A stretch of 64,000 bases of DNA from Fusibacter paucivorans (GTDB lineage Bacteria > Bacillota > Clostridia > Peptostreptococcales > Acidaminobacteraceae). The DNA is taken from assembly GCF_018390735.1 (NCBI RefSeq), contig NZ_JAHBCL010000018.1:1-64000 (forward strand). Reading direction: 5' to 3'. Below the pieces are notes generated by a model. The model was given only the letters and a program-made list of their open reading frames with translations. It had not been told where the DNA came from and did not search any database. Below are positions 40,617 through 63,429 of the stretch, one piece after another. Position numbers and translations under genes: made by a program. Numbering within the stretch: the first letter of the stretch is position 1; each line of letters starts with the position of its first letter.

Positions 40617-40696
40617 TTTTTCACCTCTTGCTTAAAACTTCATTACTCATTATAACAAATCTTGCCCTTTTGAGCACACTTTCTATTCTCGTCGTA

Positions 40697-41326: not shown

Positions 41327-41452
41327 ACATGCCTCCTACAATTGTTTTATTATACCATCAATATGCCCTCAAACATATGGAAAAGTCTTCAAGATCATAC
41401 TCAGAATTATCTTCACAGTCTTGCCGACACGATCTTTTTCACACAATCATTC

Positions 41453-43057: not shown

Positions 43058-43066
43058 TCAATTCTC

Positions 43067-44440
43067 CTATTCAGATATAATAATAATACTTTGATCCAAT
43101 ACAATCCAGTTGTACATGAATTCAGCATGAGAAGTTGGGTTTCGAACACATTTATGCGAAAGCGGAATCGTTCCAAGTGTATATGAATACTCAATGTGTC
43201 CCGGATCTATTGGACCACCAATGCGAATGTCTTCGTACTCAGCTTCTTTAATCAAAAGATTATTTTCATCATATTCCGCTTCACTAACCAGTTTTTGCTC
43301 TGTAACCCATTGATATGTCACAGGAAATCCGTGCAGATACGCACCACCGTTAAAGCGAATAGCAAACGGTGCATAGCCATCTAATTCTTTTGTCACATCG
43401 TCGAGATAGATAAACTGATCTTTTTTCTGAATAGCGGCATAATATCCCGGAACTGTCTTTTCTTTAAACTCCGCTTCTTTGCCGGATGTCGCATAAGACA
43501 GTGAGCGAACCACCCATTGGTCTTCAACAAGATCTAGCGTAGAGATATTTTGATTGTGCAGGTCCATAAAAACAACTTGATTGATCGCTTTGACAGAATT
43601 TGAAGTAGAAACAAACTTTTTCGGTACATAGCCTTCTGCATCAATGTCCGGAACATATACATAATACAGATCGCCGCTGTCATCCAAGATATCAAAAATT
43701 TGCCCATCCAGCAAATATCTAAAAGCACTGTCGGTACTGTTCGTCTCATACAACGGTGCTGACTGATCGCGCTTATTGCCAAAGGCATCTGTGTCACTGC
43801 CGTTATTGAGTGGTGCTCTGCCGCTGTAATTCTTATAATTATTTATTTTGCCCATTTTTCTCGCACCATCGAAAAAAGTTTCAAGGTGTTCGATTTTATC
43901 GAGCGCCACATCAAATCGAAATTGTCTAAACGATACGATTTTCGAGTAAATATAGCCTGTCTTGATTTCTTCGTTTTCATACCAGTACACGCGGTACCAC
44001 TCATCGCCATCTGACTTTACGAAATACTGCCCTTTAACTTTTTCGAAGACATTCATCTTGCCGTAAAGTCCCAAGCTCTTAATAACGGGACTAGCCGTCG
44101 TCGGCTGCTGACGGATGTTGACGGCATTATTGACCGCAACAATATAATAGTAGCCAACATGGTATTTATTATACGCAATTTCATCTAAATTAATGCGTTC
44201 AGGCGGATTCAGCGAATAGGATTCCACCAATGTAAAACCTTCATTGTTCTGTTTGACGACCTCTATCGCATCGCCAGTCGTCGTACCACCTGTTTCAGAT
44301 ACTGCCGGTTTTTCGACACCAATTGCAGCACCTGTATCTTGAGGCATTTCAGGCACTTCTTTTGATTCTGCAAAATTCATATTGGCAATCCCAAAAATTA
44401 AGGCCATCAGTACAATTGTTTTCTTTGTGAGTTTCAGCAT
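43067..44440 (-). CDS. L,D-transpeptidase (YkuD domain) with SH3-like domain
   Basis: 457-aa exported protein with a signal peptide (about 1-24, ending NFA). An SH3b region (NAVNIRQQPTTASPVIKSLG) suggests wall binding, and the C-terminal YkuD domain has FNGGAYLHGFPV with the conserved His and the catalytic SHKCVRNPTSH with Cys431. Family enzymes usually read SHGCVR; Lys replaces Gly here. It would form 3-3 cross-links or attach proteins to peptidoglycan. It precedes the DUF4015 glycosidase in the same orientation. Confidence 0.9.
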   Translation of the reverse strand: MLKLTKKTIVLMALIFGIANMNFAESKEVPEMPQDTGAAIGVEKPAVSETGGTTTGDAIEVVKQNNEGFTLVESYSLNPPERINLDEIAYNKYHVGYYYIVAVNNAVNIRQQPTTASPVIKSLGLYGKMNVFEKVKGQYFVKSDGDEWYRVYWYENEEIKTGYIYSKIVSFRQFRFDVALDKIEHLETFFDGARKMGKINNYKNYSGRAPLNNGSDTDAFGNKRDQSAPLYETNSTDSAFRYLLDGQIFDILDDSGDLYYVYVPDIDAEGYVPKKFVSTSNSVKAINQVVFMDLHNQNISTLDLVEDQWVVRSLSYATSGKEAEFKEKTVPGYYAAIQKKDQFIYLDDVTKELDGYAPFAIRFNGGAYLHGFPVTYQWVTEQKLVSEAEYDENNLLIKEAEYEDIRIGGPIDPGHIEYSYTLGTIPLSHKCVRNPTSHAEFMYNWIVLDQSIIIISE

Positions 44441-44533
44441 ATACGCCCCTTTTAGTCTCTCTCTTCTGCTTATTTTAAATATGAGTTCTTTTCTATTGTA
44501 CCAAAAACCTATGGCCCCTGCTTTACAGGATTG

Positions 44534-45415
44534 TTAATTTTTAGTTACAACCTTATTCGTTAAATCCCCGATTCCTTCAATACGGCATGTAACGATATCA
44601 CCGTCTTTTAAATATTTTGGCGGATCGAAGCCCATGCCGACCCCCGACGGTGTTCCCGTTAAAATAATATCCCCCGGAATCAATGTCATCCCCTGTGAAA
44701 GTGTCGCAATCAATTTGCTGATGCTAAAAATTAAATTATCGGTATAACTGGACTGTCGCACTTCACCATTCACCAAACATTCAACCTTCAATTTGGGCGG
44801 GTAATCAAACTGATCTTTCGTCACCACGACTGGACCAAGCGGTGTAAAGGTATCCAGCGATTTTCCCTTATGCCATTGAATGTGCTGCACTTGAAGATTA
44901 CGAGCACTCACGTCATTGCTGACAGTATAGCCAAATATGGCCGCTTCGGCATCAGCCTCAGTAATATTTTTAATGCGCTTGCCAATGATCACTGCCAACT
45001 CAGCCTCATAATCCACTTCATTGGTAACGGATGTCTCATAGATAATATGGTCTTCAGGCCCAATGGTTTCAAATGCCATTTTTGAGAAAAAAATGGGCTC
45101 TGTTGGAATGCCTGCCAGCGTTGCAGTTTTGCCCTGAAGTTCTCTTGCATGTTCAAGATAATTCTTACCGACGCAGATAATATTACGCTTTGGCGTCTTG
45201 ACCGGTGTTTCAAACTTCACTTCCGAAAGCGGTATCGGCATCAGTTCACTGCCTTTGCGCTCAAGTTCCGGCCACATATCCTCCCAGTTTTCAACCAGTT
45301 CATATAAGCCATCCACTTGAATGCCCAAAATTTGAGATAGTGGTTTTACCCCTTCTTCGGTGACTAGGCAAAGCCCCAATGCCCTACCGGATTTCGTGCA
45401 AACTGCAAATTTCAT
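44534..45415 (-). CDS. Fumarylacetoacetate hydrolase (FAH) family protein
   Basis: 293-aa FAH-family enzyme. The N-terminal domain is short; the catalytic domain has ICVGKNYLEHARE, the metal-ligand Glu pair in NEVDYEAELAVIIGK, then GYTVSNDVSARNLQ, KSLDTFTPLGPVVV and GDIILTGTPSGVG. Family members hydrolyse or decarboxylate beta-diketo acids, for example fumarylpyruvate, oxaloacetate or acylpyruvates. Oxaloacetate decarboxylation would suit the C4 metabolism here but is inference. The start at 45415 has GGAGG 6 nt upstream. It is a single gene, divergent from the MBL nuclease. Confidence 0.9.
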   Translation of the reverse strand: MKFAVCTKSGRALGLCLVTEEGVKPLSQILGIQVDGLYELVENWEDMWPELERKGSELMPIPLSEVKFETPVKTPKRNIICVGKNYLEHARELQGKTATLAGIPTEPIFFSKMAFETIGPEDHIIYETSVTNEVDYEAELAVIIGKRIKNITEADAEAAIFGYTVSNDVSARNLQVQHIQWHKGKSLDTFTPLGPVVVTKDQFDYPPKLKVECLVNGEVRQSSYTDNLIFSISKLIATLSQGMTLIPGDIILTGTPSGVGMGFDPPKYLKDGDIVTCRIEGIGDLTNKVVTKN

Positions 45416-45566
45416 CGTCATCCTCCTCATGTCGTCCTATATTGATACCATTATCTTATTTCGGCGGCTTTATGACAACAGTTTTTTCGCAAGAAACAGA
45501 AAAAATAGGGTACAATAGAACAAAGAGAGAACAAAGAATGAATTTCATGATTAGGATGTGAGCTCA

Positions 45567-46973
45567 ATGACAATCACTTTTATCGGTGCAACAGGGCGCG
45601 TTACCGGCTCTATGTACTATCTGGAACATAATAATCTCAAAGGTTTAGTCGACTGCGGACAGTTTCAGGGAAATTTTGAGGAAGAAAATCTCAATTACAA
45701 CACGTTGCCTTTTAATCCGGCACACCTCGATTTTATTATTTTAACACATGCACATGTGGATCACAGTGGCAGGTTACCGCTTCTCGTCAAACACGGCTTC
45801 AACGGCAAAGTCTTTTGTACTTATCCGACGATGGCGCTCACCAATGTTCTTTTACGGGATTCAGGCAAAATTCACGAAGCCGAAAACGCTTTTGACAACA
45901 AGAAACGCGAACGTGCCGGACTGCCAAAGGTACCTCCGCTGTATACAGAGGATGACGCCGTTATCGCGCTGCAATATCTCTATCCGCTTACTTATGAACA
46001 TGAAATGACCATCGAAGGCGACCTTTCATTTAAATTCGTCGATGCAGGTCATTTGCTCGGCAGCGCCAGCGTTATTTTAACCTTTAAAGGTGAAGAAGGT
46101 CTAAAGAAGCTCGTTTTTTCCGGCGATCTCGGCAACGGCAGCAACCCCGTTCAAAACAAGCCTGTCACTATATCGGATGCTGATTATCTCATTGTCGAAT
46201 CAACCTATGGTGATCGCAATCACGTTGGCGTCGAACAGCGCATGCAGGCGTTTGCAGATATTATTCGTACTGCCGTGCGTGAAAACGGAACCGTTATCGT
46301 ACCTTCTTTTGCCGTCGGGCGCACTCAGGAACTCATTTATCAGCTCAATACCTTTATTGATAACACAGACGAAGCAACACGTCAGCTGCTGGAACACATT
46401 CCGTTTTATGTCGATTCGCCATTGGCACTTGAAGCCTTTAAAGTCTATGGCGACAATAAAGACTATATGAATGAAGGCGTTCAAAGTTATGATCGCAATC
46501 CATTCAATATGCCGAACTTACACCTCGTTGAAAGCATCGAGATGTCCATTGCACTCAATCGTGACAAGTCGCCAAAAGTAATCATCGCCGCCAGCGGCAT
46601 GTGTGATGCCGGTCGAATCAAGCATCATCTCAAACACTATTTATGGCGTCAAAACACGCATGTCGTCTTTATTGGCTTTCAAGCTGAAGAAACATTGGGC
46701 AGAGCCATCCAAGAAGGTGAGAGTCCTGTCTCTATACTTGATGAAACCATTGCCGTCAAGGCAAAGCTTCATACGATTACTGGCTTTTCAGGTCATGCCG
46801 ACCAGCGGCATCTCCTCGCTTGGACCAAAGCGATGCAATCGCTGGAAAGACTCTTTATTATTCATGGTGAACCCGCCGCGATGGACGTCTTTGCAGAAAA
46901 ATTATCAGAGCAAATGCCGCCTGAAACCGAAATTGTCATTCCGGGTGCCGGTGAAGTGTTTCATTTACTCTAG
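45567..46973 (+). CDS. MBL-fold beta-CASP ribonuclease-like protein
   Basis: 468-aa metallo-beta-lactamase/beta-CASP/RMMBL protein of the CPSF73-like bacterial group. THAHVDHSGRLPLL is the zinc motif; DAGHLLGSASVIL, SGDLGNGSNPV and the beta-CASP block VPSFAVGRTQEL, PFYVDSPLA and ASGMCDAGRIKHHL follow, with GFSGHADQRHLL as the RMMBL motif. A role as RNA-processing nuclease is the family inference. The ATG at 45567 is preferred over an in-frame GTG 9 bp upstream because AGGATGTGAG fits it better, though the ribosome site is weak. Confidence 0.9.
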   Translation: MTITFIGATGRVTGSMYYLEHNNLKGLVDCGQFQGNFEEENLNYNTLPFNPAHLDFIILTHAHVDHSGRLPLLVKHGFNGKVFCTYPTMALTNVLLRDSGKIHEAENAFDNKKRERAGLPKVPPLYTEDDAVIALQYLYPLTYEHEMTIEGDLSFKFVDAGHLLGSASVILTFKGEEGLKKLVFSGDLGNGSNPVQNKPVTISDADYLIVESTYGDRNHVGVEQRMQAFADIIRTAVRENGTVIVPSFAVGRTQELIYQLNTFIDNTDEATRQLLEHIPFYVDSPLALEAFKVYGDNKDYMNEGVQSYDRNPFNMPNLHLVESIEMSIALNRDKSPKVIIAASGMCDAGRIKHHLKHYLWRQNTHVVFIGFQAEETLGRAIQEGESPVSILDETIAVKAKLHTITGFSGHADQRHLLAWTKAMQSLERLFIIHGEPAAMDVFAEKLSEQMPPETEIVIPGAGEVFHLL

Positions 46974-47056
46974 TAACCTGATCCCAAATCACTTAGAATT
47001 ATTGATGTGATTTAAATAGGGTTAAAGGCATTATTTGATGACGCAATTACCTCATT

Positions 47057-47097
47057 AAAAAGCCGGTGTTTCAAACGAACTGAAACATCGGCTTTTT
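47057..47097 (+). terminator. Bidirectional terminator after MBL gene
   Basis: Stem AAAAAGCCG(G/A)TGTTTCA with its complement and a 7-nt loop, T runs on both strands; it also serves the convergent SRPBCC-like gene. Confidence 0.88.
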
Positions 47098-47184
47098 ATA
47101 AGTTTTATTCATAATGCCGTCGGCCTTGATGCCAATGCATTACATGATTTCGATTTGGCTTGTTTTGCTATTTTAAAAAACGAT

Positions 47185-47610
47185 TTACAGACTTCCCCTT
47201 AACTGGCTTAAACTCAAATCTGTATCCAAGATAACCCAGTCTTTATTGTAATGTGCTCTCAACTGTTCCATCAATTGATTAGCATTTCTTTGCCACACTT
47301 TCCCAACTTCATCAGACAGCGCTTCACCATCAAGTGATGCAACGACAAGATGCACTTCCGTACAGTATTCAGTCTTGGATGTACACTTCATCATGTTAAA
47401 TGTTAATCGCAGCCCCTCATCCGGCAATACCCACTCAACACGTTCGTTTGGCACCTCTAAATCAATCGACATCTTAAACTCGATTTCGCCGATGCGTACG
47501 ATCGCTTCTGATTTGCCCGCCCATGCTGTCATTCTAGAATCTTTTGTAAGGCCTCTAAATGCTTCATAGACATCACAAAACAGTCTCGTACTCACGCGTA
47601 AAAAATTCAT
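47185..47610 (-). CDS. SRPBCC-superfamily-like small protein, function unknown
   Basis: 141-aa soluble protein. The pattern RLFCDVYEAFRGLTKDSRMTAWAGKSE, then alternating strands (RIGEIEFKMSIDLEVPNERVEWVLPDE) and a C-terminal amphipathic helix (EVGKVWQRNANQLMEQLRAHY) resembles START/AHSA1-type SRPBCC domains, which bind hydrophobic ligands. The match is by pattern only. GGAGG is close before the ATG. It is a single gene between two terminators. Confidence 0.7.
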   Translation of the reverse strand: MNFLRVSTRLFCDVYEAFRGLTKDSRMTAWAGKSEAIVRIGEIEFKMSIDLEVPNERVEWVLPDEGLRLTFNMMKCTSKTEYCTEVHLVVASLDGEALSDEVGKVWQRNANQLMEQLRAHYNKDWVILDTDLSLSQLRGSL

Positions 47611-47751
47611 TTAATCCTCCTGTAGACTTTGCCTTGTTATTTCCATACCCATCCGATGGATAATATCAACACGTTGCTACAAAATAATACCGTATTCTCC
47701 TTTGAAAATCCATAGCTATTCTATTACAATTCCATTTCATTCACAATAAGT

Positions 47752-47787
47752 GAACCCCTCTGACAATGCCATCCGACAGAAGGGTTC
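47752..47787 (-). terminator. Strong hairpin after the AtoE-like gene
   Basis: Arms GAACCCTTCTG/CAGAGGGGTTC (one G-U pair) enclose a 14-nt loop, 45 bp after the transporter stop. The T tract is poor on both strands, so it may be a weak terminator or an mRNA 3'-end stabiliser. Confidence 0.45.
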
Positions 47788-47832
47788 TCATATAAATTTT
47801 ATTCAATTGATATTTTCAGTCCTGCCCGTCCG

Positions 47833-49191
47833 TTAAACCGGGAACAGCCCTGGAAGAAAATATAATCCCAATGTTACGACAATAAACCAGAATATTAATA
47901 GAAAGAACATTAATCCCCAGACATCTTTCAGCTTCATCTCTACGATTGCCAAAGCCGGCATTGCCCAAAGCGGATTAAAGAGATTTGTCATTTCATCACC
48001 ATTCAGGAATGCATTCAGAACATATGGTATATGTGCACCTAGCGTTTGAGCAGCCTCTGTCAAAATCGGCCCCTGAATAATCCATTGACCACCCTGCGAA
48101 GGAATAAAAATATTTACCAGTGCCGCTGACCAGAATGAAAAAACATAAAATGTATCTGCCGAAGAAATGTTGACTAGCCACATTGCTATTGCACTCGCTA
48201 AACCCGAGGACTGCATCATGCCCATGATCCCGCCATAAAATGGGAATTGAAGCAAAATTTCTGCAGAAGCACTTGCACTTTGTTTCATTGCCAGATAATA
48301 GCGGCGCGGTGTATTATAGAGAAACATATTCAAAACCATGAAGATGAATATAATACCGTTAAAGTTCAAAGACCCCAGAACGCCCTTAGTCATCACAGAA
48401 TGAATAATTGCTGCAACACCGAATATACCAAACAACAACATAATCAATTTGCTTTTATTCATGCTGTTTGCCAATGAGCGTTCCTCATCGTCTGCCTCGT
48501 CTTCGACATCCTCGCCCTGAACCTTTTCCAAATATTTTGCATCAAGCTCAACGATTTCATCCTTCGGCGGCCGCGTGAAAATGACGACGCTGCATAAGAC
48601 GATTGTCGTAATGGCAAAGAGAAGCAAATTCATTGGATTAAACGCCGTTAAATTCTGAGGGATGACACCAATGGCATCCTCGAGGAAATGCCCCGGTGTT
48701 GCCACCAGCGCATAAGCACTGATACTTGGTGTGATTACCTGAGATTGAACCATGACCATATATCCGCCGACGATCATCATTGGAAAATGCAGTCCCTTAA
48801 CCTTGCTAGCCAGATAGGTTGCCAGAATGGCGGTAAGGATTGTGCCAAATGCCCAATTGATAAAGCTGGCGATATAAATCGTAACTAGAAAAATGACCAT
48901 TGCCGATAACGGTGATTTTGGAATTTCAGATATTCTGATGAGCAGTTTCTTAACCTGCGTTGATTTCGCCGAGGCGCTGCATACGACAACCATGAGGATA
49001 ACTTGAAATGCGAAGCTGTTCATGGACCATATACCATCACGCCAGCCAGAGATAACCAGTGAAAAATTAAAATTTGATACAATAAGACTCCCCAACATAC
49101 ATACAAATGTCAAGAGAATGCAAAATACAAATGTGTCCGGAATGATTTTTTCTGCCGCAAAATTAAATTTCTTTGAAATACGCCATAACAT
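47833..49191 (-). CDS. AtoE-type short-chain fatty acid transporter (TIGR00366-like)
   Basis: 452-aa integral membrane protein with about 11-12 hydrophobic segments. KIIPDTFVFCILLTF at the start, INWAFGTILTAILATYLASKV, VQSQVITPSISAYALVATPGHF, and NIFIPSQGGQWIIQGPILTEAA are the conserved stretches of the short-chain fatty acid transporter family, whose known members carry acetoacetate, butyrate or related acids. A charged loop (about 215-245) interrupts the helices. The start at 49191 has a GGGAGGGG ribosome site 5 nt upstream. It is downstream of the BKACE gene in the same unit, so it likely imports that pathway's substrate or exports acetoacetate. Confidence 0.88.
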   Translation of the reverse strand: MLWRISKKFNFAAEKIIPDTFVFCILLTFVCMLGSLIVSNFNFSLVISGWRDGIWSMNSFAFQVILMVVVCSASAKSTQVKKLLIRISEIPKSPLSAMVIFLVTIYIASFINWAFGTILTAILATYLASKVKGLHFPMMIVGGYMVMVQSQVITPSISAYALVATPGHFLEDAIGVIPQNLTAFNPMNLLLFAITTIVLCSVVIFTRPPKDEIVELDAKYLEKVQGEDVEDEADDEERSLANSMNKSKLIMLLFGIFGVAAIIHSVMTKGVLGSLNFNGIIFIFMVLNMFLYNTPRRYYLAMKQSASASAEILLQFPFYGGIMGMMQSSGLASAIAMWLVNISSADTFYVFSFWSAALVNIFIPSQGGQWIIQGPILTEAAQTLGAHIPYVLNAFLNGDEMTNLFNPLWAMPALAIVEMKLKDVWGLMFFLLIFWFIVVTLGLYFLPGLFPV

Positions 49192-49265
49192 TATAACCCC
49201 TCCCAATCATATCTCATTTTTACAGTGCGCTTTATTTGGCACTTTTTTATCATTAATGCGATTGA

Positions 49266-49309
49266 ACAGTGAGAAGCTTTGTACCCTTTTCCATGGCGCT
49301 TCTCACTGT
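49266..49309 (-). other. Intercistronic hairpin between BKACE and transporter genes
   Basis: Perfect 12-bp arms ACAGTGAGAAGC/GCTTCTCACTGT with a 20-nt loop. No T run follows on either strand, so it is more likely an RNA-processing or stability element setting the ratio of the two proteins than a terminator. Confidence 0.5.
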
Positions 49310-49347
49310 CTTAACTGCATTAAGGTTCTTTAATAACGCTTTCTATG

Positions 49348-50385
49348 CTATTTGAGCGGTAATCCAATCAATTTTCTGTAATCATTCGGACTTGCGACTT
49401 CTCTCCCCAGCAGTGCACATAACTGTTTATAATCCAAGAATGTCTTAGCATTGTTCTCGATCTTATCATCCTTGTGCGGCCACTTCCACACCGTATCTTC
49501 CATCCCCACTCTAATATGACATCCCATCAACACGGCAAGCGTTGCCAAATAACTTGATGCACGTCCGGATGCACACACCATAATGACTGCATCCTTGTCA
49601 ATTTCCTTGATGCGGTTGTGTAAGTGCATAAAAGTTTCCACCATGCCGCTTTTTGTTGGCATTGGGCTACCACCCGGCAAGTCTGCTAAGATGAGCCAAT
49701 GCGATGGCTGTCCCGTTGCACCGGTTTCAACCAGCCCTGTTTTAAACAGCCAGCGATCCGCATTGTCAATGTCACCATCCGAATAAACTGCGATTTGTGG
49801 AATAATGCCATGCTCCTGAACAAGGCGCGCTTTTTGAATGATAATATGCGGTGCTTTCGTCAGCAGCATATCTCCGCAGTAAGTTGCCGTCGTATTAATT
49901 GGTGTTACGTCGATGAGCTTCGAATCGAGCATTTCCAGCATACGCTCCCAGTCGCCTTCATATCTTGGCACAAGGCAGCAGTCAAACATGACATCTGGAA
50001 ATTCTTTTTTTAATGAACCGATGACCTGATTAAATAGTTTTGGATCTAAACGGTTATAGCCATCTTCATTTCTTACGTGAATGTGAATAATTGGCGCCCC
50101 AGCCAAAATCGCTTCTCTCGCCGAATTATAAATTTCATCTGGTGTTATTGGCTGGTTCGGATTGCCGTTCTTGCTGTAAAATGAACCAACAACTGCAGTT
50201 GAAATAACAACCTTGTCCGAGATGTCCCATTTTGGCTGTACAATCACGTCATCCGTCGCTACAGCTGTGTGCACCGGATCTGTCACTTCAGGCAATCCAT
50301 AGAAAAAAGTCTTTGAGAGCATGCCGTGCTCTTTTGAGAGCTGCTCAATAACATCCCACCTAATTTTATTCGTTTGCAATTTCAT
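49348..50385 (-). CDS. Beta-keto acid cleavage enzyme (BKACE, DUF849 / Kce family)
   Basis: 345-aa TIM-barrel zinc enzyme. The family reaction is beta-keto acid + acetyl-CoA giving acetoacetate and a new acyl-CoA; the founder cleaves 3-keto-5-aminohexanoate in lysine fermentation. Zinc ligands His101 and His103 lie in HIHVRNEDGYNRLDP, the conserved Glu in GCHIRVGMEDTVWKWPHKD, and VISTAVVGSFYSKNGNP starts the barrel at residue 59. An unusual N-terminal extension of about 55 residues precedes it. The start has AAGGAG 5 nt upstream. The keto-acid substrate is not known; no lysine-fermentation genes are present, so a lysine role is not supported. Confidence 0.9.
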   Translation of the reverse strand: MKLQTNKIRWDVIEQLSKEHGMLSKTFFYGLPEVTDPVHTAVATDDVIVQPKWDISDKVVISTAVVGSFYSKNGNPNQPITPDEIYNSAREAILAGAPIIHIHVRNEDGYNRLDPKLFNQVIGSLKKEFPDVMFDCCLVPRYEGDWERMLEMLDSKLIDVTPINTTATYCGDMLLTKAPHIIIQKARLVQEHGIIPQIAVYSDGDIDNADRWLFKTGLVETGATGQPSHWLILADLPGGSPMPTKSGMVETFMHLHNRIKEIDKDAVIMVCASGRASSYLATLAVLMGCHIRVGMEDTVWKWPHKDDKIENNAKTFLDYKQLCALLGREVASPNDYRKLIGLPLK

Positions 50386-50476
50386 ACACTCCTTTCATAT
50401 TGAGAAAAATAAACTGCATGTGTTTTTTGCACTTCTTATTCTCTTTTGATTAAACATCGCATCCATAAAACTTTTA

Positions 50477-50513
50477 AATTATACTTAATATTTAAGTGAT
50501 AATTAAATGTTAA
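50477..50513 (-). promoter_or_regulatory. Promoter and composite operator A for BKACE-transporter unit
   Basis: The perfect palindrome ACTTAATATTTAAGT (50483-50497) is followed 5 bp later by TTAAATGTTAA (50503-50513). On the minus strand a perfect TATAAT -10 (about 50485-50480) overlaps the palindrome edge, so a bound protein would cover the promoter. The same arrangement recurs at 52587-52617. Best fit is a repressor site shared by the island. Confidence 0.6.
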
Positions 50514-50584
50514 ATCATCTTTCCGCAAATGTCAATGCAAATTTAGTTCAAAAATCACCTTTCGCAGCATTTTTCTTTATCCGC

Positions 50585-50639
50585 AAAAAACACAAAAGCC
50601 GACACTGCACTCAGGGTTGTTAGCGCAGCATCGACTTTT
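50585..50639 (-). terminator. Terminator after SDR1
   Basis: Hairpin with arms AAAAGTCGA..GCTGC and GCAG..TCGGCTTTT (one G-U pair, small internal loop) followed on the minus strand by GTGTTTTTT. It ends the SDR2-SDR1 transcript before the BKACE unit. Confidence 0.75.
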
Positions 50640-50693
50640 GCTCATTGCTAGGGGTAATCTATGTTCTACATGTGGTTGTGGACAAAAATATAA

Positions 50694-51488
50694 TTAATAT
50701 AAAGGTTTGCAGGACAAATACCCGCCATCGACATAGAGCGTGATGCCCGTGACAAAATTTGAAGCATCTGTTGCCAAAAACACCGCGGCGCCTATCAGTT
50801 CATGCGGCGCCATCATCCTGCCGAAGGGAACCCCTTTCCGAATGCCTTCATATATTGCTGTTTCTCTATTTTCCATCATCGGCGTGTGGACCCATGATGG
50901 TGCAATTGCATTGACATTAATGCCATATTCGGATAGTTCCCCGGCAAAGCTTCGCGTCAATTGATGCACAGCCGCTTTGCTGATCGAATAGGGCATTGTG
51001 CAAGTGGTATGATTAAGGACGCCGCCAATAGACCCGATATTGATTATTTTTCCATATCGCTGAGCAATCATCACTTTGCCTATGCTTTGGTTCAAAAATA
51101 CAGATCCCTTTAAATTGATATCCAAAATTCTATCAATTGCCTTTTCATTAAAATCAACTGCGCTGTCCGTTGCACTCACGCCCACGGCATTTACCAGCAC
51201 GTCGATTTTCCCAAATTGCTGCAAAACTGTTTCGACGACCTTTACAACATTTTCCTTCAGTGTCACATCAATCGTATAGGTATGGGCGTTACCACCCTCC
51301 GCTTGGATATTTGCGCATATCTGCATCGCTTCATGCGCATTGATATCGGCGATGATGACCTCGGCGCCTTTTTGAGCAAACGCCTTTGCTATCGTCGCAC
51401 CAATACCACCTGCGCCAACGATAAAGCAGGTTCTTCCATGTAAGTCGAAAAGCTTGTCTGCGTTGCCATAGGGAATGATCTGTTTCAA
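50694..51488 (-). CDS. Short-chain dehydrogenase/reductase 1
   Basis: 264-aa classical SDR. The coenzyme loop is VGAGGIGATIAKAF (GxGGIG variant of TGxxxGIG) followed by an acidic Asp in IIADIN, which favours NAD(H). NAVG, SIGG with the catalytic Ser and YSISK with the Tyr/Lys pair complete the site, and VDGGYLSCK is the usual end. The start is a TTG at 51488 with AAGGGGTGG upstream. With SDR2 and BKACE it could oxidise a beta-hydroxy acid to the keto acid that BKACE cleaves; this is inference. Confidence 0.9.
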   Translation of the reverse strand: MKQIIPYGNADKLFDLHGRTCFIVGAGGIGATIAKAFAQKGAEVIIADINAHEAMQICANIQAEGGNAHTYTIDVTLKENVVKVVETVLQQFGKIDVLVNAVGVSATDSAVDFNEKAIDRILDINLKGSVFLNQSIGKVMIAQRYGKIINIGSIGGVLNHTTCTMPYSISKAAVHQLTRSFAGELSEYGINVNAIAPSWVHTPMMENRETAIYEGIRKGVPFGRMMAPHELIGAAVFLATDASNFVTGITLYVDGGYLSCKPLY

Positions 51489-51541
51489 TTTAATCCACCC
51501 CTTTCACGTTATTGATTGGCTAGCTTCTGAAAATGTTCGAT

Positions 51542-51619
51542 TTATGCCAATGCCTTGAGGTACTTACATGGCGAATATCTGTAGCAATTGCATACATCAG
51601 TAATGATGAACCATAACAA
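51542..51619 (-). CDS. Possible 25-codon small ORF between the two SDR genes
   Basis: In the 247-bp gap between SDR2 and SDR1, a strong GGAGGGG ribosome site stands 5 nt before a TTG that opens a 25-codon frame ending in TAA. The peptide starts LLWFIITDVCNCYRYSPCKY and has three Cys residues. An overlapping ATG gives only MVHHY. It could be a true small protein, a leader peptide for SDR1, or a chance frame; I do not recognise it. Confidence 0.35.
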   Translation of the reverse strand: MLWFIITDVCNCYRYSPCKYLKALA

Positions 51620-51735
51620 TCTAACCCCTCCTATTCAATTATCTGTTCATAACACGCCAGCCCTTTTATTCTATTTGTTCCGCCTGTGTCAATGATGAGC
51701 AACACCTTATACTGCCCTCACAATATAGTGTTTTT

Positions 51736-52506
51736 TTAACTTCCTGCAATGGTTCTGCCACCATCGACATCCAGATGAACGCCCGTAATATAATTGGCCA
51801 AATCCGAACATAAAAACAGTACGCCCCCAACGATGTCTTCTGGATTTGCAATTCTTTTTAGCGGACTTTTTTGAGCAATGCTTTCAACCGTCTTTTCGTC
51901 AAAAAAGGCGATGAGATCTGTTGCTACAAAAAATGGATTTACCGCATTCACGTGAATATTATATTTCGCCCACTCTGCCGCAAGCGCCTTTGTCATTTGC
52001 AGTGTAGATGCTTTGCTGACACCGTATGCAACCGCTTCAGGTACGCCAAAATGTGCTGCGGTTGATGACATAAATATAATTCTGCCCCTGCCTGCCGGAA
52101 TCATAAAATGTTTGGCAATTTTAGTCGACATAAAAAAATGTGATCTGACATTAATTGCCGATGTCCTATCCCAGTTTTCATAACTGTATTCAACAGAGGG
52201 ACCTGTGCGGTAGATGCCTGCATTATTAATGAGAATATCCACACGTCCATACTGATGTTTAATATCACTCAACATTTTATCAACGCTGGCATCATTGGTA
52301 ATATCGCAGCAAAATAGTTCAGCGCACCCTCCCACATCATCAGCCGTGTTGACAATCTCCACCATTCGACGCTCATTTTGCTCCAAATCAACCAACAGCA
52401 CTGTGGCACCTAGTGAAGCGAAACCGATCGAAATGCTCTTGCCAATGCCTTGCGCAGCACCTGTGACCAATACAATCTTGTTGTGAAAATCAAGTCCATA
52501 CTTCAT
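51736..52506 (-). CDS. Short-chain dehydrogenase/reductase 2
   Basis: 256-aa classical SDR with the standard coenzyme loop VTGAAQGIGKSI, Asp in LLVDLE (NAD preference), NNAGIYRTG, the catalytic Ser in FMSSTAAHFG, YGVSKAS and the end VDGGRTIAGS. The start at 52506 (MKYGLDF) has GGAGG 7 nt upstream; the longer frame lacks support. It is the first gene of the SDR2-SDR1 unit and lies behind operator B. Two SDRs next to a BKACE suggest two oxidation steps or two stereoisomers of one substrate. Confidence 0.9.
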   Translation of the reverse strand: MKYGLDFHNKIVLVTGAAQGIGKSISIGFASLGATVLLVDLEQNERRMVEIVNTADDVGGCAELFCCDITNDASVDKMLSDIKHQYGRVDILINNAGIYRTGPSVEYSYENWDRTSAINVRSHFFMSTKIAKHFMIPAGRGRIIFMSSTAAHFGVPEAVAYGVSKASTLQMTKALAAEWAKYNIHVNAVNPFFVATDLIAFFDEKTVESIAQKSPLKRIANPEDIVGGVLFLCSDLANYITGVHLDVDGGRTIAGS

Positions 52507-52586
52507 TGCATTGCCTCCTTTTCTATTGAGAACATTTAAAAATTTTGATACAATCAAAATCCGCGTATACTTAAATATATTGTATT

Positions 52587-52617
52587 ACTTAATATTTAAG
52601 TATTGGTTAAATATTAA
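52587..52617 (-). promoter_or_regulatory. Composite operator B upstream of SDR2
   Basis: The same 15-bp palindrome as site A, ACTTAATATTTAAGT (52587-52601), then 5 bp, then TTAAATATTAA (52607-52617). Spacing and orientation equal those of site A, and it lies about 80 bp before the SDR2 start. A TACAAT box adjoins it on the minus strand. Confidence 0.6.
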
Positions 52618-52733
52618 CTCTATTTATTTTCTTTGTCAACCCCTTTTGATTCGTCAAATAGGCATATCATTAAAAAATTCAATGAAATCAGGCAAGTAAT
52701 TTTCCATTTTTTTGCGTTTGCCAATAACGATTA

Positions 52734-52742
52734 TGGTATAAT
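52734..52742 (+). promoter_or_regulatory. Extended -10 promoter of the XRE-cupin gene
   Basis: TGG-TATAAT on the plus strand; TTGCGT is 19 bp upstream as a possible -35. The predicted leader of about 175 nt is long. Confidence 0.45.
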
Positions 52743-52833
52743 TGATTTAAAATTTAAATATATTTGAATGGTTTAGAATTTTTCGAAACATTTTAGGATT
52801 TTTCACATGATTATACAATTAATGCTTGCCTTG

Positions 52834-52851
52834 CGTGTGATTATTCACACG
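52834..52851. promoter_or_regulatory. Palindrome in the regulator leader
   Basis: CGTGTGA-TTAT-TCACACG, perfect 7-bp arms, 73 bp before the regulator start. It may be an autoregulatory operator or an RNA hairpin; it has no T run. Confidence 0.4.
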
Positions 52852-52924
52852 ACTTATATACGATATACATTGGACGTTAGACATTAGATGATCATGACAT
52901 AAGAAAGGAAATAGGAAATAGAAA

Positions 52925-53533
52925 ATGGATAATTGGTTATTGGGATTCAAATTAAAACAAATGAGAGAAAAGAGCGGTTTAAAGCTTAAGGATGTTTCCG
53001 AAAAGGTTGGGATCTCATCTGCCTTTTTGAGTTTGGTAGAGAATGGCCGATCAGGTATTAGCATTGGTAAGCTACAGAGTATTCTAGATGTGTACGGCAA
53101 AAAACTTTCAGATTTATATGAGGATGCTTCCGAGAGCAATAAGGTATTGCCATTAGAACAGTGTCAAAAGTTGGGCTATGACATCGAAGGCATTTCATCC
53201 TACATTCTTCTAACCGACCCGGGCAAAGCACCTATTTTCCCAGTACACTTCCGATTGGAGCCCGGCGCATCAATTGGTCCTATCACGCATAAGGGCGATG
53301 AAATTTGCTTTATCATCGAAGGCGAATTTGAATTTATTTTTGAAAATCTCGAAACCGGCGTCATTGAAACATATGTTGCGAAAAAATGGGATACCGTGCG
53401 ATATGCGGGTGATCTGCTGCACACAGTGACCAACGTCTCATCAAATCCTTCTGTATTATATTCAGTAATCTATTACACGGATGTGGCAGACAACCCGCAT
53501 CTCGTGCCACAAGAAAATCATTTTCACGTTTAA
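52925..53533 (+). CDS. XRE-family regulator with C-terminal cupin domain
   Basis: 202-aa regulator: an N-terminal XRE helix-turn-helix (about 8-62: LKQMREKSGLKLKDVSEKVGISSAFLSLVENGRSGISI) and a C-terminal cupin sensor (about 105-190: HFRLEPGASIGPITHKGDEICFIIEGEFEF, then DLLHTVTNVS). This architecture is common for regulators of small-molecule catabolism. It is divergent from the SDR2 unit and is the best candidate to bind operators A and B. The cupin ligand, probably the pathway substrate or an intermediate, is unknown. The ribosome site (AGGAAATAG) is weak. Confidence 0.9.
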   Translation: MDNWLLGFKLKQMREKSGLKLKDVSEKVGISSAFLSLVENGRSGISIGKLQSILDVYGKKLSDLYEDASESNKVLPLEQCQKLGYDIEGISSYILLTDPGKAPIFPVHFRLEPGASIGPITHKGDEICFIIEGEFEFIFENLETGVIETYVAKKWDTVRYAGDLLHTVTNVSSNPSVLYSVIYYTDVADNPHLVPQENHFHV

Positions 53534-53580
53534 CCATCTTAATTAAATGCAAAATTTTAAATCTTTTTAATTTTAAACAT

Positions 53581-53618
53581 ATAAAAAGGGATTAGGCAAT
53601 TGCCTAATCCCTTTTTAT
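53581..53618 (-). terminator. Bidirectional terminator, perfect 38-bp palindrome
   Basis: Each half reads ATAAAAAGGGATTAGGCAA; the two halves meet without a mismatch and give T runs on both strands. It ends both the XRE-cupin gene and nifJ, which converge here. Confidence 0.92.
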
Positions 53619-53637
53619 GCTTAATGTTCTGTAATGC

Positions 53638-56600
53638 TTAATATTCCATCTTTGACATTCTTACATAGCCTTCATAGCGATCTTTCGCCTGTGCTTCAGC
53701 AAGGGTAAATAATTCTTCTGCCACTTCAGGGAATTGTGTTTTAAGGCTTGTATATCTTGTTTCACCAAGCAGGAATTCTCTAAAGCTATCAGAAGGTTCT
53801 TTTGAATCTAACACAAATGGGTTTTTACCTTCTGCTTTTAAGCGTGGGTCAAAACGCCATAAATGCCAGTATCCAGATGCAACGGCTTCTTTCATTCTTC
53901 TTTGTGCTGTTCCCATACCACCTTTGATACCGTGGTTGATACATGGTGAGTAGCAAATGATGAGTGATGGTCCATCATAACTTTCAGCCTCTTGTAAAAC
54001 TTTGAGGAAGTGCGCTTGATTAGAACCCATTGAAACTTGTGCTGTGTAGATATAGCCATAAGTGGTTGCGATCATACCAAGGTCTTTTTTCTTCACGCGC
54101 ATCCCCGATGCTGCGAATTTTGCAACCGCAGAAACCGGTGTTGACTTAGAAGCTTGACCACCTGTATTTGAGTAAACTTCTGTATCAAATACGAGGATGT
54201 TGACATTTTCACCACTTGCGAGTACATGGTCAAGACCACCGTAACCAATATCATATGCCCAACCGTCACCACCGACGATCCATAAAGAACGTTTTCCGAG
54301 GTAGTCGGCATTGTCAATTGTATATTTGAGAACGGCTTCAAGTTCTGCATTATCCGATCCCGCTTCTGCAATGGCGAGCACTTTCGCACCAGCTGCTTTA
54401 GAAGCATCCGGATCTTCCATGCCTTCAATCCAAGCTGCAAATGCTGCTTTTACATCGTCTGCAACAGCCATTTCAGCTACTGTTGCAAATTTTTCTTTCA
54501 TTGCGGCGCGAATTGCTTTAACGGCAACCGCCATACCATAGCCATACTCAGCGTTGTCTTCAAACAGTGAGTTCGCCCACGCTGGACCTTTACCTGCTGC
54601 ATTTTTTGTATAAGGTGTTGCTGGTGCAGAACCACCCCAGATCGAAGAACAGCCCGTTGCATTGGCAATCATCATTCTGTCGCCAAAGAGCTGTGTTACT
54701 GCTTTCATGTAAGGTGTTTCACCACAGCCTGCACATGCACCTGAGAATTCGAAGAGCGGCTGTGCAAATTGTGAACCTTTTACAGTTGAAAGCGGCATTT
54801 TATCATCTTTAACCGGTAAATCAATGACATAGTTCCAATTTGGCGATTCTTGTTCGACTTGCGTTTCAATCGGTTTCATGATAAGTGCTTTTTGTTTTGC
54901 TGGACAGACGTCGGCACAGTTGCCGCAGCCAGTACAGTCATAAGGTGAAACTTGGATTTTATATGCCAAGCCTTCAAGCCCTTTGCCAATTGCTTTTTTC
55001 GTTGCAAGACCTGCCGGTGCCGCAGCCACTTCTTCTTCAGTCAGTAAGAAAGGTCTGATGGCAGCATGTGGACACACATACGAACATTGATTACATTGGA
55101 TACAGTTGTCAATTTGCCATTCAGGTACATTTACCGCGATACCGCGTTTTTCATAAGCCGCCGAACCTGCTTCAAATGTACCATCTGCTGTTTCTTTGAA
55201 AATGCTAACAGGCAGATCATCACCTTTTTGAGCCGTAATCGGTCTTAAAATATCTTTGATAAATGAAGGTTCACCTGTCGCTTCTGGTGCAACATCGCTG
55301 TCTTTTGCATCTGCCCAAGCAGCAGGCACATCTACTTTTACGAGACGTTCAATACCGTATTCAACAGCTTTATTGTTTTTCTCAACAATAGATTGGCCTT
55401 TTTTGCCGTATGATTTTTCAATGGCTTCTTTTAAATATGCAATCGCTTTATCAATCTCAATAACGTTTGCGAGTTTAAAGAATGCCGCTTGCATAATCAT
55501 GTTAATGCGATTGCCAAGACCAATTTCTTCCGCTACGCTCGTCGCGTCAATCGTATAGAATTTGATATCATTTTTCGCAATATAACGCTTCATTGATGCC
55601 GGAAGCAATGCTTCGAGTTCTTCTGCATTCCATTTGCAGTTGAGAACAAAGCTGCCGCCTTTTTTAAGACCTTTGAGCAGATCATACTGATAAACATATG
55701 ACTGATTATGGCATGCGACATAGTCCGCTTCAACAATTAAGTAAGTGGAACGAATCGGCTTGTCGCCAAATCTTAAGTGGGATACTGTAATACCGCCTGA
55801 TTTTTTAGAGTCATATGCAAAATAACCTTGTGCATATTTATCTGTTTTATCACCGATAATTTTGATGGCGCTTTTGTTGGCACCAACTGTACCGTCGGAG
55901 CCAAGACCCCAGAATTTGCATCGAATAGTTCCCGGCGTTTCGATGACGACACTGTCATTTTCAGTTAACGAAAGATTCGTAACATCATCATTGATACCAA
56001 TGGTAAAACCATTTGCCGGTACATCTGCTTTTAAGTTGTCATAAACAGCTTTAATTTGCGTAGGCGTTGTATCTTTAGAACCTAAACCATAACGGCCGCC
56101 CACGACAATCGGTGCATCAGCTTTGCCAAAGAACATTGCGCGAACATCTTTGTAAAGTGGTTCACCGTCTGAACCAGGCTCTTTTGTACGATCGAGTACC
56201 GCGATTTTCTTAACCGTTGAAGGCAGGACATCAAAGAAGTATTTGTCTGTCCATGGTCGATACAGTCTGACTTTAATCATGCCGTATTTTTCGCCTTTGG
56301 CATTCAGGTAATCGATGGTTTCTTCAATGGCTTCAACAACAGACCCCATTGCAACGATGATGTTCTCTGCATCAGGTGCACCATAGTAGTTAAAAGGTTT
56401 GTAATCTCTGCCAGTAATTTTATTGATTTCATTCATGTAATCGACAACGACTTCTGGGATCGCATCGTAATAGCTGTTAGATGCTTCTCTCGCTTGGAAG
56501 AAAATATCAGGATTCTGAGCCGTACCTCTGGTAACAGGGTGCTCTGGGCTGAGTGCTTTCTTTCTAAAAGCGACGATGGCATCATGATCAACCAGACGAT

Positions 56601-57177
56601 CAAAATCATCGTAGTCAATGGTTTCAATTTTTTGGATTTCATGAGACGTTCTAAAACCGTCGAAGAAGTGTAAGAATGGTACGCTTGTTTTAATTGCCGC
56701 TAAGTGCGCGACACCGCCAAGGTCCATAACTTCTTGTACAGAACCCGATGCAAGCATTGCAAAACCTGTTTGGCGTGTCGCCATAACGTCAGAATGATCC
56801 CCAAAGATAGAAAGTGCATGTGAAGCAACCGCTCTAGCGCTGACGTGGAACACACCCGGCAATAGCTCACCGGCAATCTTGTACATGTTTGGTATCATGA
56901 GTAATAACCCTTGAGACGCTGTAAAAGTTGTCGTCAATGCACCTGCTTGAAGCGACCCATGAACAGCCCCTGCTGCACCAGCTTCAGATTGCATTTCAGA
57001 TACGATTACGGGACGACCAAAGATGTTCTTTTTGCCATGTGCTGCCCAATCATCTACAGACTCTGCCATGTTTGAAGATGGGGTAATTGGGTAGATTGCA
57101 GCAACATCCGTGAATGCATAGGCAACGTATGCAGCAGCGGTGTTACCATCCATGGTTTTCATTACTTTTTTACCCAT
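53638..57177 (-). CDS. nifJ: Pyruvate:ferredoxin (flavodoxin) oxidoreductase
   Basis: 1179-aa single-chain PFOR, converting pyruvate and CoA to acetyl-CoA, CO2 and reduced ferredoxin. Domain order is standard: domain I start MDGNTAAAYVAYAFTDVAAIYPITPSS, the CoA/gamma region, a ferredoxin domain with two [4Fe-4S] motifs (CIQCNQCSYVCPH and CTGCGNCADVCPAK), and the thiamine diphosphate domain with the proximal-cluster Cys residues (SGACAGCGETPY) and GDGWAYDIGYGGLDH. The start at 57177 (MGKKVMKT) has GGAGG 10 nt upstream. It is the central catabolic enzyme of anaerobes and is preceded by a leader of about 300 nt. Confidence 0.97.
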   Translation of the reverse strand: MGKKVMKTMDGNTAAAYVAYAFTDVAAIYPITPSSNMAESVDDWAAHGKKNIFGRPVIVSEMQSEAGAAGAVHGSLQAGALTTTFTASQGLLLMIPNMYKIAGELLPGVFHVSARAVASHALSIFGDHSDVMATRQTGFAMLASGSVQEVMDLGGVAHLAAIKTSVPFLHFFDGFRTSHEIQKIETIDYDDFDRLVDHDAIVAFRKKALSPEHPVTRGTAQNPDIFFQAREASNSYYDAIPEVVVDYMNEINKITGRDYKPFNYYGAPDAENIIVAMGSVVEAIEETIDYLNAKGEKYGMIKVRLYRPWTDKYFFDVLPSTVKKIAVLDRTKEPGSDGEPLYKDVRAMFFGKADAPIVVGGRYGLGSKDTTPTQIKAVYDNLKADVPANGFTIGINDDVTNLSLTENDSVVIETPGTIRCKFWGLGSDGTVGANKSAIKIIGDKTDKYAQGYFAYDSKKSGGITVSHLRFGDKPIRSTYLIVEADYVACHNQSYVYQYDLLKGLKKGGSFVLNCKWNAEELEALLPASMKRYIAKNDIKFYTIDATSVAEEIGLGNRINMIMQAAFFKLANVIEIDKAIAYLKEAIEKSYGKKGQSIVEKNNKAVEYGIERLVKVDVPAAWADAKDSDVAPEATGEPSFIKDILRPITAQKGDDLPVSIFKETADGTFEAGSAAYEKRGIAVNVPEWQIDNCIQCNQCSYVCPHAAIRPFLLTEEEVAAAPAGLATKKAIGKGLEGLAYKIQVSPYDCTGCGNCADVCPAKQKALIMKPIETQVEQESPNWNYVIDLPVKDDKMPLSTVKGSQFAQPLFEFSGACAGCGETPYMKAVTQLFGDRMMIANATGCSSIWGGSAPATPYTKNAAGKGPAWANSLFEDNAEYGYGMAVAVKAIRAAMKEKFATVAEMAVADDVKAAFAAWIEGMEDPDASKAAGAKVLAIAEAGSDNAELEAVLKYTIDNADYLGKRSLWIVGGDGWAYDIGYGGLDHVLASGENVNILVFDTEVYSNTGGQASKSTPVSAVAKFAASGMRVKKKDLGMIATTYGYIYTAQVSMGSNQAHFLKVLQEAESYDGPSLIICYSPCINHGIKGGMGTAQRRMKEAVASGYWHLWRFDPRLKAEGKNPFVLDSKEPSDSFREFLLGETRYTSLKTQFPEVAEELFTLAEAQAKDRYEGYVRMSKMEY

Positions 57178-57482
57178 TTTTAAATAGCCTCCTTTAATCA
57201 ATATAGATCTCAAACAGTACTGTATTATCATACAATCCTGTCACTTGACGAACGAAGTCGACGCGTTGGTCTAATTCACTCGCTACATGATAAGCACTTG
57301 CATCAAATACTAGGTTAATAGCGCTTAAATGCGTAAATATAATTAATTGCTTAACTATTAGTTTATCAAAATATTACAAAAATTAAAACAAATAATACAC
57401 GCCCTGCCACAAATTTATTCATGTTTCACGCTTGCTATACGACCTTGAGTATATTCAACCTAACATTCTCCGCGTTATTTTT

Positions 57483-57511
57483 ATTATAACACCGTTGTAT
57501 TTTGTATACAA
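57483..57511 (-). promoter_or_regulatory. Candidate nifJ promoter
   Basis: Minus-strand TTGTAT (57511-57506) and perfect TATAAT (57488-57483) with a 17-bp spacer and a TG extension. It implies a 5' leader of about 300 nt. Confidence 0.6.
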
Positions 57512-57703
57512 TTATTTTTTTCAAGTCTTTTTGACTGTTTTAATCTTTAATTAAAGTGATCTTAACAACGACTTTAGAAATCCCTTACTTCTATGGCTCC
57601 GATATCTATCGCTTCCTGTCTCGTTAATCCGATTTTACCTTTCAGACGATAGAAACTTTGTATACAATTTGTTTGCAGCTTGTTAAAAAATAAATAATTT
57701 ATG

Positions 57704-57712
57704 TGTTATAAT
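57704..57712 (+). promoter_or_regulatory. Extended -10 promoter of flavodiiron gene
   Basis: TGT-TATAAT on the plus strand, 69 bp before the start codon; no -35 of note. Confidence 0.5.
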
Positions 57713-57781
57713 GATGCTTGAAGGGTAATTTTAATCTATAATAATGAACGAAAACAACAACCAATTGAATGAGGTGAAAAG

Positions 57782-58990
57782 ATGAATTGCAGATTATCGA
57801 TTAAAGACAAGATTCACTGGATCGGTGTCAACGATCGCGAAACGACGTTATTTGAAAATTACTGGCCGCTTGAGAAAGGCGTAGCATATAATTCTTATCT
57901 CATCAACGACGAAAAAGTTGCCATCATCGACACAGTTAAATTCAATAAGACGACAGAGTATCTTGAGAAAATTAAGGAAATCATCGGTGACAAACCCGTT
58001 GATTATCTAGTTGTCAATCATATGGAACCCGATCATTCCGGTTCGATGCTCGCGCTTCTCGGCACTTATCCAGACATGAAAATTGTCGGCAATAAAAAAA
58101 CGTTTCCTTTTATAGAAGGTTTTTACGGCATCACAAGAAATTATATGGAAGTCGTCGAAGGCGACATCATTGACCTCGGTTTTCACAAGTTGACATTTTA
58201 CATGACACCGATGGTTCACTGGCCGGAAACGATGATGACTTACGAAACAACTTCTAAAGTGCTCTTCTCTATGGATGCCTTTGGCGGCTTTGGCGCGCTG
58301 GACGGCGGCATTTTTGATGATGAAATCAATTATGAGTTTTATGAAGATGAAACGCGCAGATATTATTCAAATATCGTGGCAAAATACAGCGCCATGGTTC
58401 AGCGAAGCCTCAAAAAACTGGCAGGTCTTGATATTCAAATTGTCGCACCAACACATGGTCCGATTTGGCGATCAAATCCTGGCGAAATTATAGGCCTTTA
58501 CGATAAATGGAGCCGTTATGAAGCAGAAAAAGGCGTCGTTATCGTCTATGGTTCTATGTATGGTAATACCGCAAAAATGGCTGATTTTCTTGCGAGAATT
58601 ATCGCTGAAAACGGCATTAAGGATGTAAAGGTCTTTGACGCTTCTAAAACCCATCCGTCTTATATTCTAAGTGAAATTTGGAAGTATAAAGCCGCTGTCA
58701 TCGGGTCATGTGCTTATAATACGAAAGTATTCAGCTCTGTTGAAACGGTTCTCGCTAAACTTTCAAATTCAAGTCTGAAAGACCGCTATGTCTCGGTGTT
58801 TGGCAATAAATCTTGGTCGGGCGGCGGCGTTTCGGGCATCAATGCATTTGTTGATGAAATCGGTTGGGAGCGCATTGGCGAATCCATCGAAGCAACCTAT
58901 TCGCCAAAAGATGCAGAATTCAAAGCCCTTACAGAACTCGGAGAGGCTATTGCCGCAAAACTGCACGAAACCTACCCTGAGGAAAACTAG
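57782..58990 (+). CDS. Flavodiiron protein (FprA-type O2/NO reductase)
   Basis: 402-aa flavodiiron protein, which reduces O2 to water (or NO to N2O) and protects anaerobes. The N-terminal metallo-beta-lactamase-like diiron domain has HMEPDHSGS with ligands His80, Glu82, Asp84 and His85, and later VHWPETMMTY and APTHGPIWRS with further ligands. The C-terminal flavodoxin domain starts near 255 with VVIVYGSMYGNTAKMAD. No fused rubredoxin is present. GAGGTG lies 5 nt before the ATG. Divergent pairing with oxygen-sensitive PFOR is functionally sensible. Confidence 0.95.
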   Translation: MNCRLSIKDKIHWIGVNDRETTLFENYWPLEKGVAYNSYLINDEKVAIIDTVKFNKTTEYLEKIKEIIGDKPVDYLVVNHMEPDHSGSMLALLGTYPDMKIVGNKKTFPFIEGFYGITRNYMEVVEGDIIDLGFHKLTFYMTPMVHWPETMMTYETTSKVLFSMDAFGGFGALDGGIFDDEINYEFYEDETRRYYSNIVAKYSAMVQRSLKKLAGLDIQIVAPTHGPIWRSNPGEIIGLYDKWSRYEAEKGVVIVYGSMYGNTAKMADFLARIIAENGIKDVKVFDASKTHPSYILSEIWKYKAAVIGSCAYNTKVFSSVETVLAKLSNSSLKDRYVSVFGNKSWSGGGVSGINAFVDEIGWERIGESIEATYSPKDAEFKALTELGEAIAAKLHETYPEEN

Positions 58991-59064
58991 TTTATCAAAT
59001 AACATGCCTAGGCGACTTTCAGGCTTAAACGATGCGTTAATCAGTTTACTGACAATTGCAAAAG

Positions 59065-59099
59065 AACCCGGTACCGCAAAATTGCAGTATCGGGTTTTT
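59065..59099 (+). terminator. Terminator after flavodiiron gene
   Basis: Stem AACCCG(G)TAC/GTA(T)CGGGTT followed by TTTTT on the plus strand. Confidence 0.8.
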
Positions 59100-59105
59100 A
59101 ATGTG

Positions 59106-59146
59106 AAAAACTCATGCATCTAATGGGCGCAGCATGCATGAGTTTT
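59106..59146 (-). terminator. Terminator after the CoA-transferase gene
   Basis: Stem AAAACTCATGCA/TGCATGAGTTTT with a 16-nt loop, followed by T residues on the minus strand. Confidence 0.82.
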
Positions 59147-59212
59147 CCAAAAAAAGGTTAAGGGAATCTATTTTATTCATATTAGGAGATAGCGTTAATC
59201 ATTTATTTCAAC

Positions 59213-61550: not shown

Positions 61551-61588
61551 ATTAACCTCCTCAAACTTTTGTTGTTGTCATTAATATT

Positions 61589-61605
61589 TGCAAGAGCCAT
61601 GCCAA
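61589..61605 (-). promoter_or_regulatory. Sigma-54 (-24/-12) promoter of FabH-like/CoA-transferase operon
   Basis: Minus-strand TTGGCATGGCTCTTGCA matches the TTGGCA-N6-TTGCA consensus with the invariant GG and GC exactly 10 bp apart. It lies 39 nt before the start codon, and the gene just upstream encodes a sigma-54 activator. Confidence 0.85.
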
Positions 61606-61665
61606 CTTTTTTTCGACACCAGTTTCAATAGAACAGACAAAAAACAGCCATTTTTGTCTCCAAAT

Positions 61666-61730: not shown

Positions 61731-61881
61731 TCCACTTTTCATCCTTATTTCCTCTTAAAAAATAAAGATCAGTCTTATTGCTGATCTTCATTTGATATTG
61801 ACCCATTCGTTAGCTTTTAACACAATCCCTTCGTTTGGCCTTTCGAGCGGCTGTACGGCATTAAGGTTTGCATTGCGCCTC

Positions 61882-63421: not shown

Positions 63422-63429
63422 ATTGCACA

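Follow-up and report, generated by a model that had tools for sequence, protein, structure and literature searches.

The question raised by this locus of Fusibacter paucivorans is whether a transporter, two SDRs, a regulator and a zinc protein of the DUF849/BKACE type constitute one pathway, and whether the zinc protein carries out the reaction of a BKACE, i.e., the conversion of acetyl-CoA and a beta-keto acid into acetoacetate and a new acyl-CoA. The genes are situated in a window of 64,000 nucleotides (contig NZ_JAHBCL010000018.1, positions 1 to 64,000), which is the whole stretch of DNA that was analysed. All five reading frames named in the preliminary description are intact, and each has Pfam matches (Table 1).

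Table 1. Features of the island and of its predicted regulatory sites (positions in the window)
Feature	Position	Strand	Basis or remark
Island	47742-53580		BLASTN gap versus same-genus genome G013
AtoE/SCFA_trans-type transporter	47833-49206	-	PF02667, 327 bits, residues 6-451
N-extended DUF849/BKACE-like Zn protein, 345 aa	49348-50385	-	PF05853, 163 bits, residues 58-342
Operator 1 (predicted), TACTTAATATTTAAGT	50482-50497		just downstream of BKACE promoter -10
BKACE-transporter promoter	50507-50535	-	TTGACA-17-TAACAT; geometry as SDR2 promoter
SDR1, NAD-type dehydrogenase	50694-51488	-	PF13561, 199 bits
SDR2, NAD-type dehydrogenase	51736-52557	-	PF13561, 209 bits
Operator 2 (predicted), identical 16-mer TACTTAATATTTAAGT	52586-52601		SDR2/regulator divergent region
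SDR2-SDR1 promoter	52611-52639	-	TTGACA-17-TAATAT
XRE-cupin regulator, divergent	52925-53533	+	PF01381 (HTH_3) and PF07883 (Cupin_2)

Borders, genes and regulation of the island

Genome G013 is collinear with the window at 40694-47741 and 53581-64000 (85-90% DNA identity, BLASTN) and shares the flanking genes, i.e., those of an MBL-fold protein (45558), a 141-aa protein (47185) and pyruvate:ferredoxin oxidoreductase (53638). The island itself is missing there, with around 159 bp of unrelated sequence at that spot. Its PF05853 variant is found in one of the 41 genomes of the family, the own genome counted, and no further member was found among 391 genomes of the class. Because of the empty site in G013 and this patchy distribution, the island was probably gained by horizontal transfer, loss in all other genomes being less likely; a sign of foreign DNA was not found in its base composition or GC content. 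An 18-pair hairpin terminator (53580-53619), situated between the island end and the oxidoreductase gene and kept in G013, marks the right border.

Concerning the transporter, PF02667 extends across its full length, as in SCFA (AtoE) transporters, and its TIGR00366 score of 320 bits is under the equivalog cut-off. Ribosome-binding sites point to ATG 49191 as its likely start and to ATG 52506 as that of SDR2. Both SDRs, described earlier as intact and NAD-type, indeed possess Y-x3-K and, after beta-2, an acidic residue, which favours NAD; SDR1 exhibits a Gly-rich loop shorter by one residue (GAGGIG) and NAVG in place of NNAG. Ahead of SDR1 (51611-51637) stands an 85% repeat of the transporter gene's ribosome-binding site and start (49183-49209); the short reading frame that follows has around 25 codons and is perhaps the leftover of a second transporter gene. 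Deduction of the substrate from the SDRs was dropped: a comparison with PDB sequences gave no match within E 1e-55, and the SDRs of relatives' cassettes are not orthologous. The latter share only around 30% identity with the window SDRs, so that the substrate may not be the same in every cassette.

The putative operator TACTTAATATTTAAGT is a near-perfect palindrome of 16 bp with two copies in the window (0.06 expected), which are also its only exact matches in the 4.43 Mb genome; the 15-bp core likewise occurs nowhere else. Both copies follow immediately downstream of minus-strand promoters of the form TTGACA-17-TAAYAT, at an identical offset of 38 bp from the -35 element TTGACA, and thereby cover the start regions of the two transcription units. 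One further site with a single mismatch exists (C59:7106, close to one end of a contig of 7.4 kb); in a genome-wide search for extra regulon members, sites with two mismatches were not commoner than those of a reversed-pattern control. The divergent gene combines HTH_3 and Cupin_2, as XRE-cupin regulators do, and a search of the genome at E<=1e-15 showed no second one. Related regulators with the recognition-helix stretch in common are found in the relatives' cassettes, and the motif recurs with zero to two mismatches upstream of cassette genes in five loci of other families (L011, L012 with an exact match, L013, L014 and L016; 0.04-0.18 matches expected per locus by an approximate shuffle), in L011 63 bp ahead of the SDR gene. 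Since the palindrome occupies the same place in both promoters, is unique to the island within the genome and recurs beside orthologous cassettes, a role of the XRE-cupin protein as local regulator co-switching SDR2-SDR1 and BKACE-transporter is strongly supported, and its predicted binding to TACTTAATATTTAAGT is well supported. As far as sequence goes, matching promoters and a shared operator also speak for the co-induction of SDRs and BKACE-like gene on which the earlier proposal depended. Taken alone, the island and its regulation can be regarded as highly probable.

Residues of the zinc protein

The score of the window enzyme against PF05853 far exceeds the cut-off of 24.8, and the best PDB match of its AlphaFold model (pLDDT 86.9) is the TIM barrel of Kce (2y7d; TM 0.91 of target), with 26% sequence identity. 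The genome further contains eight canonical BKACE paralogues (L001-L008, on contigs C55, C12, C1, C33, C18, C11 (two) and C3), of which L002 passes the dioxohexanoate-type model NF053538 (433 versus a cut-off of 430). The window enzyme belongs to a deep clade apart from these paralogues and Kce (branch of 1.17 substitutions per site, bootstrap 79, trimmed alignment). The N-terminal extension of around 55 residues, noted before in this protein, proved to be a character of the clade: most relatives align from their first residues, P51 and W53 are invariant, and a helix is predicted at 10-20.

Residues were compared between 22 clade members and nine canonical enzymes, among them the eight same-genome paralogues. 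The zinc His pair is intact as claimed (H101, H103) and joined by E296 (H46, H48 and E230 of Kce); this triad is conserved throughout the clade, together with Arg226, Asp231 and Tyr145 (Kce numbering; Tyr145 is Y201). The position of Kce E143, Glu in 9/9 canonical enzymes, is occupied by Ala in 22/22 clade members (Ala199), and those of Ser82 and Thr106, S/T in 9/9, by invariant Cys137 and Pro162, whereas Glu14 corresponds to Phe69 in the window enzyme and to Phe or Met across the clade. Of the residues of a functional BKACE, Tyr145 is hence present, whereas the catalytic base Glu and the Ser/Thr at Kce 82 and 106 are lacking. The latter two reportedly hold the substrate carboxylate in Kce. 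E143 is aligned, via Y145 = Y173, to E171 of BKACE15, which is the catalytic base there and whose exchange (E171L) leaves the enzyme inactive. In BsfD, a Lys in the loop after the ED motif contacts CoA. The loop of the equivalent of this Lys254 is rebuilt in the window enzyme with a 2-residue insertion, EDTVWKWPH replacing the canonical EDN-x-[YF]-x-x-K; the CoA-contact Arg is kept (R275; Kce R209, equivalent of BsfD Arg226). Three aspartates, D135, D203 and D205, are invariant in the clade. Tyr at Kce position 145 is stated for all BKACEs (PMC12871164); this position is Phe in five of the eight canonical paralogues, the lysine Kce included.

Fold and zinc site are also similar to those of BKACE15 of Paracoccus (8RIO/8RIP/9HNF). 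A similar gene organization is that of CsTAL, the triacetate acetoacetate-lyase of phloroglucinol degradation, where a DUF849 enzyme is likewise found in an anaerobe's cluster with SDR, dehydrogenase, transporter and regulator; CsTAL, however, keeps most of the Kce pocket residues, with Trp at 14, whereas the window clade does not, and the island is without a DPGC-type cyclase. In BsfD (flavophos biosynthesis), another case of divergent DUF849 chemistry, the Tyr is altered, whereas the window clade keeps the Tyr and alters the Glu. The cis-epoxysuccinate hydrolase CESH[D] (5ZMU/5ZMY) is a DUF849-related zinc TIM barrel and CoA-free hydrolase; of the metal ligands of Kce it retains only two, whereas the window clade retains all three. 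In the DUF849 survey by Bastard et al. (PMC4922564), some groups lacked BKACE activity, and one of these was decarboxylating. Because the family includes these groups, BsfD and the hydrolase, intact zinc histidines are not a sufficient sign of BKACE activity, and the window clade may be among the non-BKACE groups of Bastard et al.

The cassette in other genomes

Relatives of the window enzyme number 21 in GTDB genomes, with more on plasmids. Nine loci of anaerobes (50-62% identity) belong to Papillibacter cinnamivorans (three copies), Syntrophomonadaceae, Synergistaceae and Family XIII bins, and twelve of aerobes (42-47%) to rhizobia, Sphingobium, Arthrobacter, Agrobacterium, Gordonia and others. 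Among the anaerobes, regulator orthologues adjoin clade members in L011-L014, L016 and L018, and one or two SDRs lie beside L011, L013, L016, L017 and L018. The set of regulator, BKACE-like enzyme, SDR and membrane protein recurs in Papillibacter (three copies), in Synergistaceae and partly in other anaerobes; neither the SDRs nor the varied membrane proteins there are orthologues of the window proteins. Since these partners differ, the cassette is, judged by its gene content, a module of regulator, enzyme, dehydrogenase and carrier with exchangeable parts. The Papillibacter cassettes (L011 9140-10180, L013 6651-7754, L018 9123-10172) each encode a hydrophobic protein of around 350 aa that no Pfam family matched at E 1e-8 and that may represent a transporter family not yet recognised.

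An AMP-binding CoA ligase is situated near most aerobic copies (L019, L021-L026, L028-L030, L034-L038); the Microbacterium locus L020 departs from this pattern, and L027 is truncated. Eight canonical BKACE plasmid loci, picked by even spread down a ranking, had no annotated AMP-binding ligase within 4 kb, this control being small and its gene tables incomplete; one of them (a carnitine locus) has a gene of the acetate-CoA ligase family. A CoA transferase pair adjoins L010 and the rhizobial loci L028/L035/L038. On the Sphingobium and rhizobial plasmids (L034, L035, L038), genes of aldehyde dehydrogenase, SDRs and CoA ligase are shared near the BKACE-like gene, L034 and L035 possess a SurE gene, and the rhizobia also have phosphotransferase and saccharopine-dehydrogenase-like genes; no literature tying these aerobic SurE/ligase clusters to a substrate was found.

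Possible reactions

The preliminary description had the island import a hydroxy acid, oxidise it and cleave it to acetoacetate. A coherent, co-regulated island for import, oxidation and cleavage of a substrate other than lysine is borne out, whereas the standard BKACE step from acetyl-CoA to acetoacetate is not: with the Claisen base Glu replaced by Ala and the Ser/Thr carboxylate pair by Cys/Pro, the cleavage is most likely a different one. The reading preferred here, held tentatively and at somewhat less than an even chance, is that of a gained, substrate-inducible island in which import and SDR oxidation are followed by zinc-dependent cleavage, most likely without acetyl-CoA/acetoacetate exchange. 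From the gene content we infer three steps: the AtoE-type carrier would import a small carboxylic acid or hydroxy-ketone, whose hydroxyl would be oxidised to a keto group by one of the NAD-dependent SDRs or by both, and the zinc TIM-barrel enzyme would cut the C-C bond adjoining the new carbonyl. This cut would more likely be a CoA-independent zinc-water retro-Claisen (hydrolytic) or a retro-aldol reaction, freeing an acid that would then be activated by a CoA ligase (in aerobes) or a CoA transferase; a CoA-independent cut to a free acid is favoured because the base is lost, the loop rebuilt and ligases are nearby. With equal reserve, the clade might be a new zinc C-C lyase/hydrolase in the BKACE fold that works with residues of its own (candidates D135, C137, D203 and D205) and without acetyl-CoA, encoded in a mobile, self-regulated cassette of anaerobes and of aerobic soil bacteria, in the latter together with a CoA ligase. 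Phe or Met at position 14 would speak against an amino substrate, by comparison with CsTAL (PMC10470551). The retained CoA-contact Arg stands against a CoA-free reaction, and the ligase of the aerobes may act before cleavage instead of after it.

It is unlikely, albeit a serious alternative, that the enzyme is a true BKACE, in which a different residue would serve as base for the conversion of acetyl-CoA and a neutral beta-keto acid made by the SDRs into acetoacetate and acyl-CoA. The Kce fold of the model and the retained zinc triad, Arg226, Asp231 and Tyr145 agree with this, an altered Claisen mechanism with D135, D203 or D205 as substitute base is possible, and the CoA transferases of L010 and L028/L035/L038 could equally well reactivate acetoacetate; the clade-wide replacements of Glu and Ser/Thr, the dead E171L variant of BKACE15 and the vanished EDN-x-[YF]-x-x-K loop, however, speak against it. 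A beta-keto acid decarboxylase similar to DUF849 group G6, a non-BKACE group with decarboxylation activity (PMC4922564), is rather improbable: zinc is able to stabilise an enolate, and the SDRs would make the keto acid, but the product would be a ketone and no free acid would arise for the ligases of the aerobic loci. Even less probable is a regulatory or vestigial non-catalytic protein, or a set of genes that do not make up a single pathway; the 139 proteins of group G7 were inactive on every substrate tried (PMC4922564), yet here the metal ligands are strictly kept over a deep clade, the operator is shared and the cassette is recurrent.

That the window enzyme is the lysine-fermentation Kce, as its Pfam family and the automatic naming of its relatives might suggest, was rejected as next to impossible, since Glu14 is replaced by Phe69, the NF052387 score is 132 versus a cut-off of 382, and the true Kce of this genome (437 bits) lies elsewhere, on contig C55 beside the 3-aminobutyryl-CoA ammonia lyase (Kal). 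Two lysine 2,3-aminomutases above cut-off are also encoded in the genome; because the window enzyme falls outside the Kce clade, a lysine pathway elsewhere leaves the proposed non-lysine route standing. Public labels of clade members as '3-keto-5-aminohexanoate cleavage protein' are very probably wrong.

The window enzyme may thus perform an undescribed C-C cutting reaction. A clade with the zinc site but without the Claisen base offers a direct test of a change of chemistry in the BKACE fold, and the island's own operator and regulator provide a ready reporter for the discovery of its substrate.
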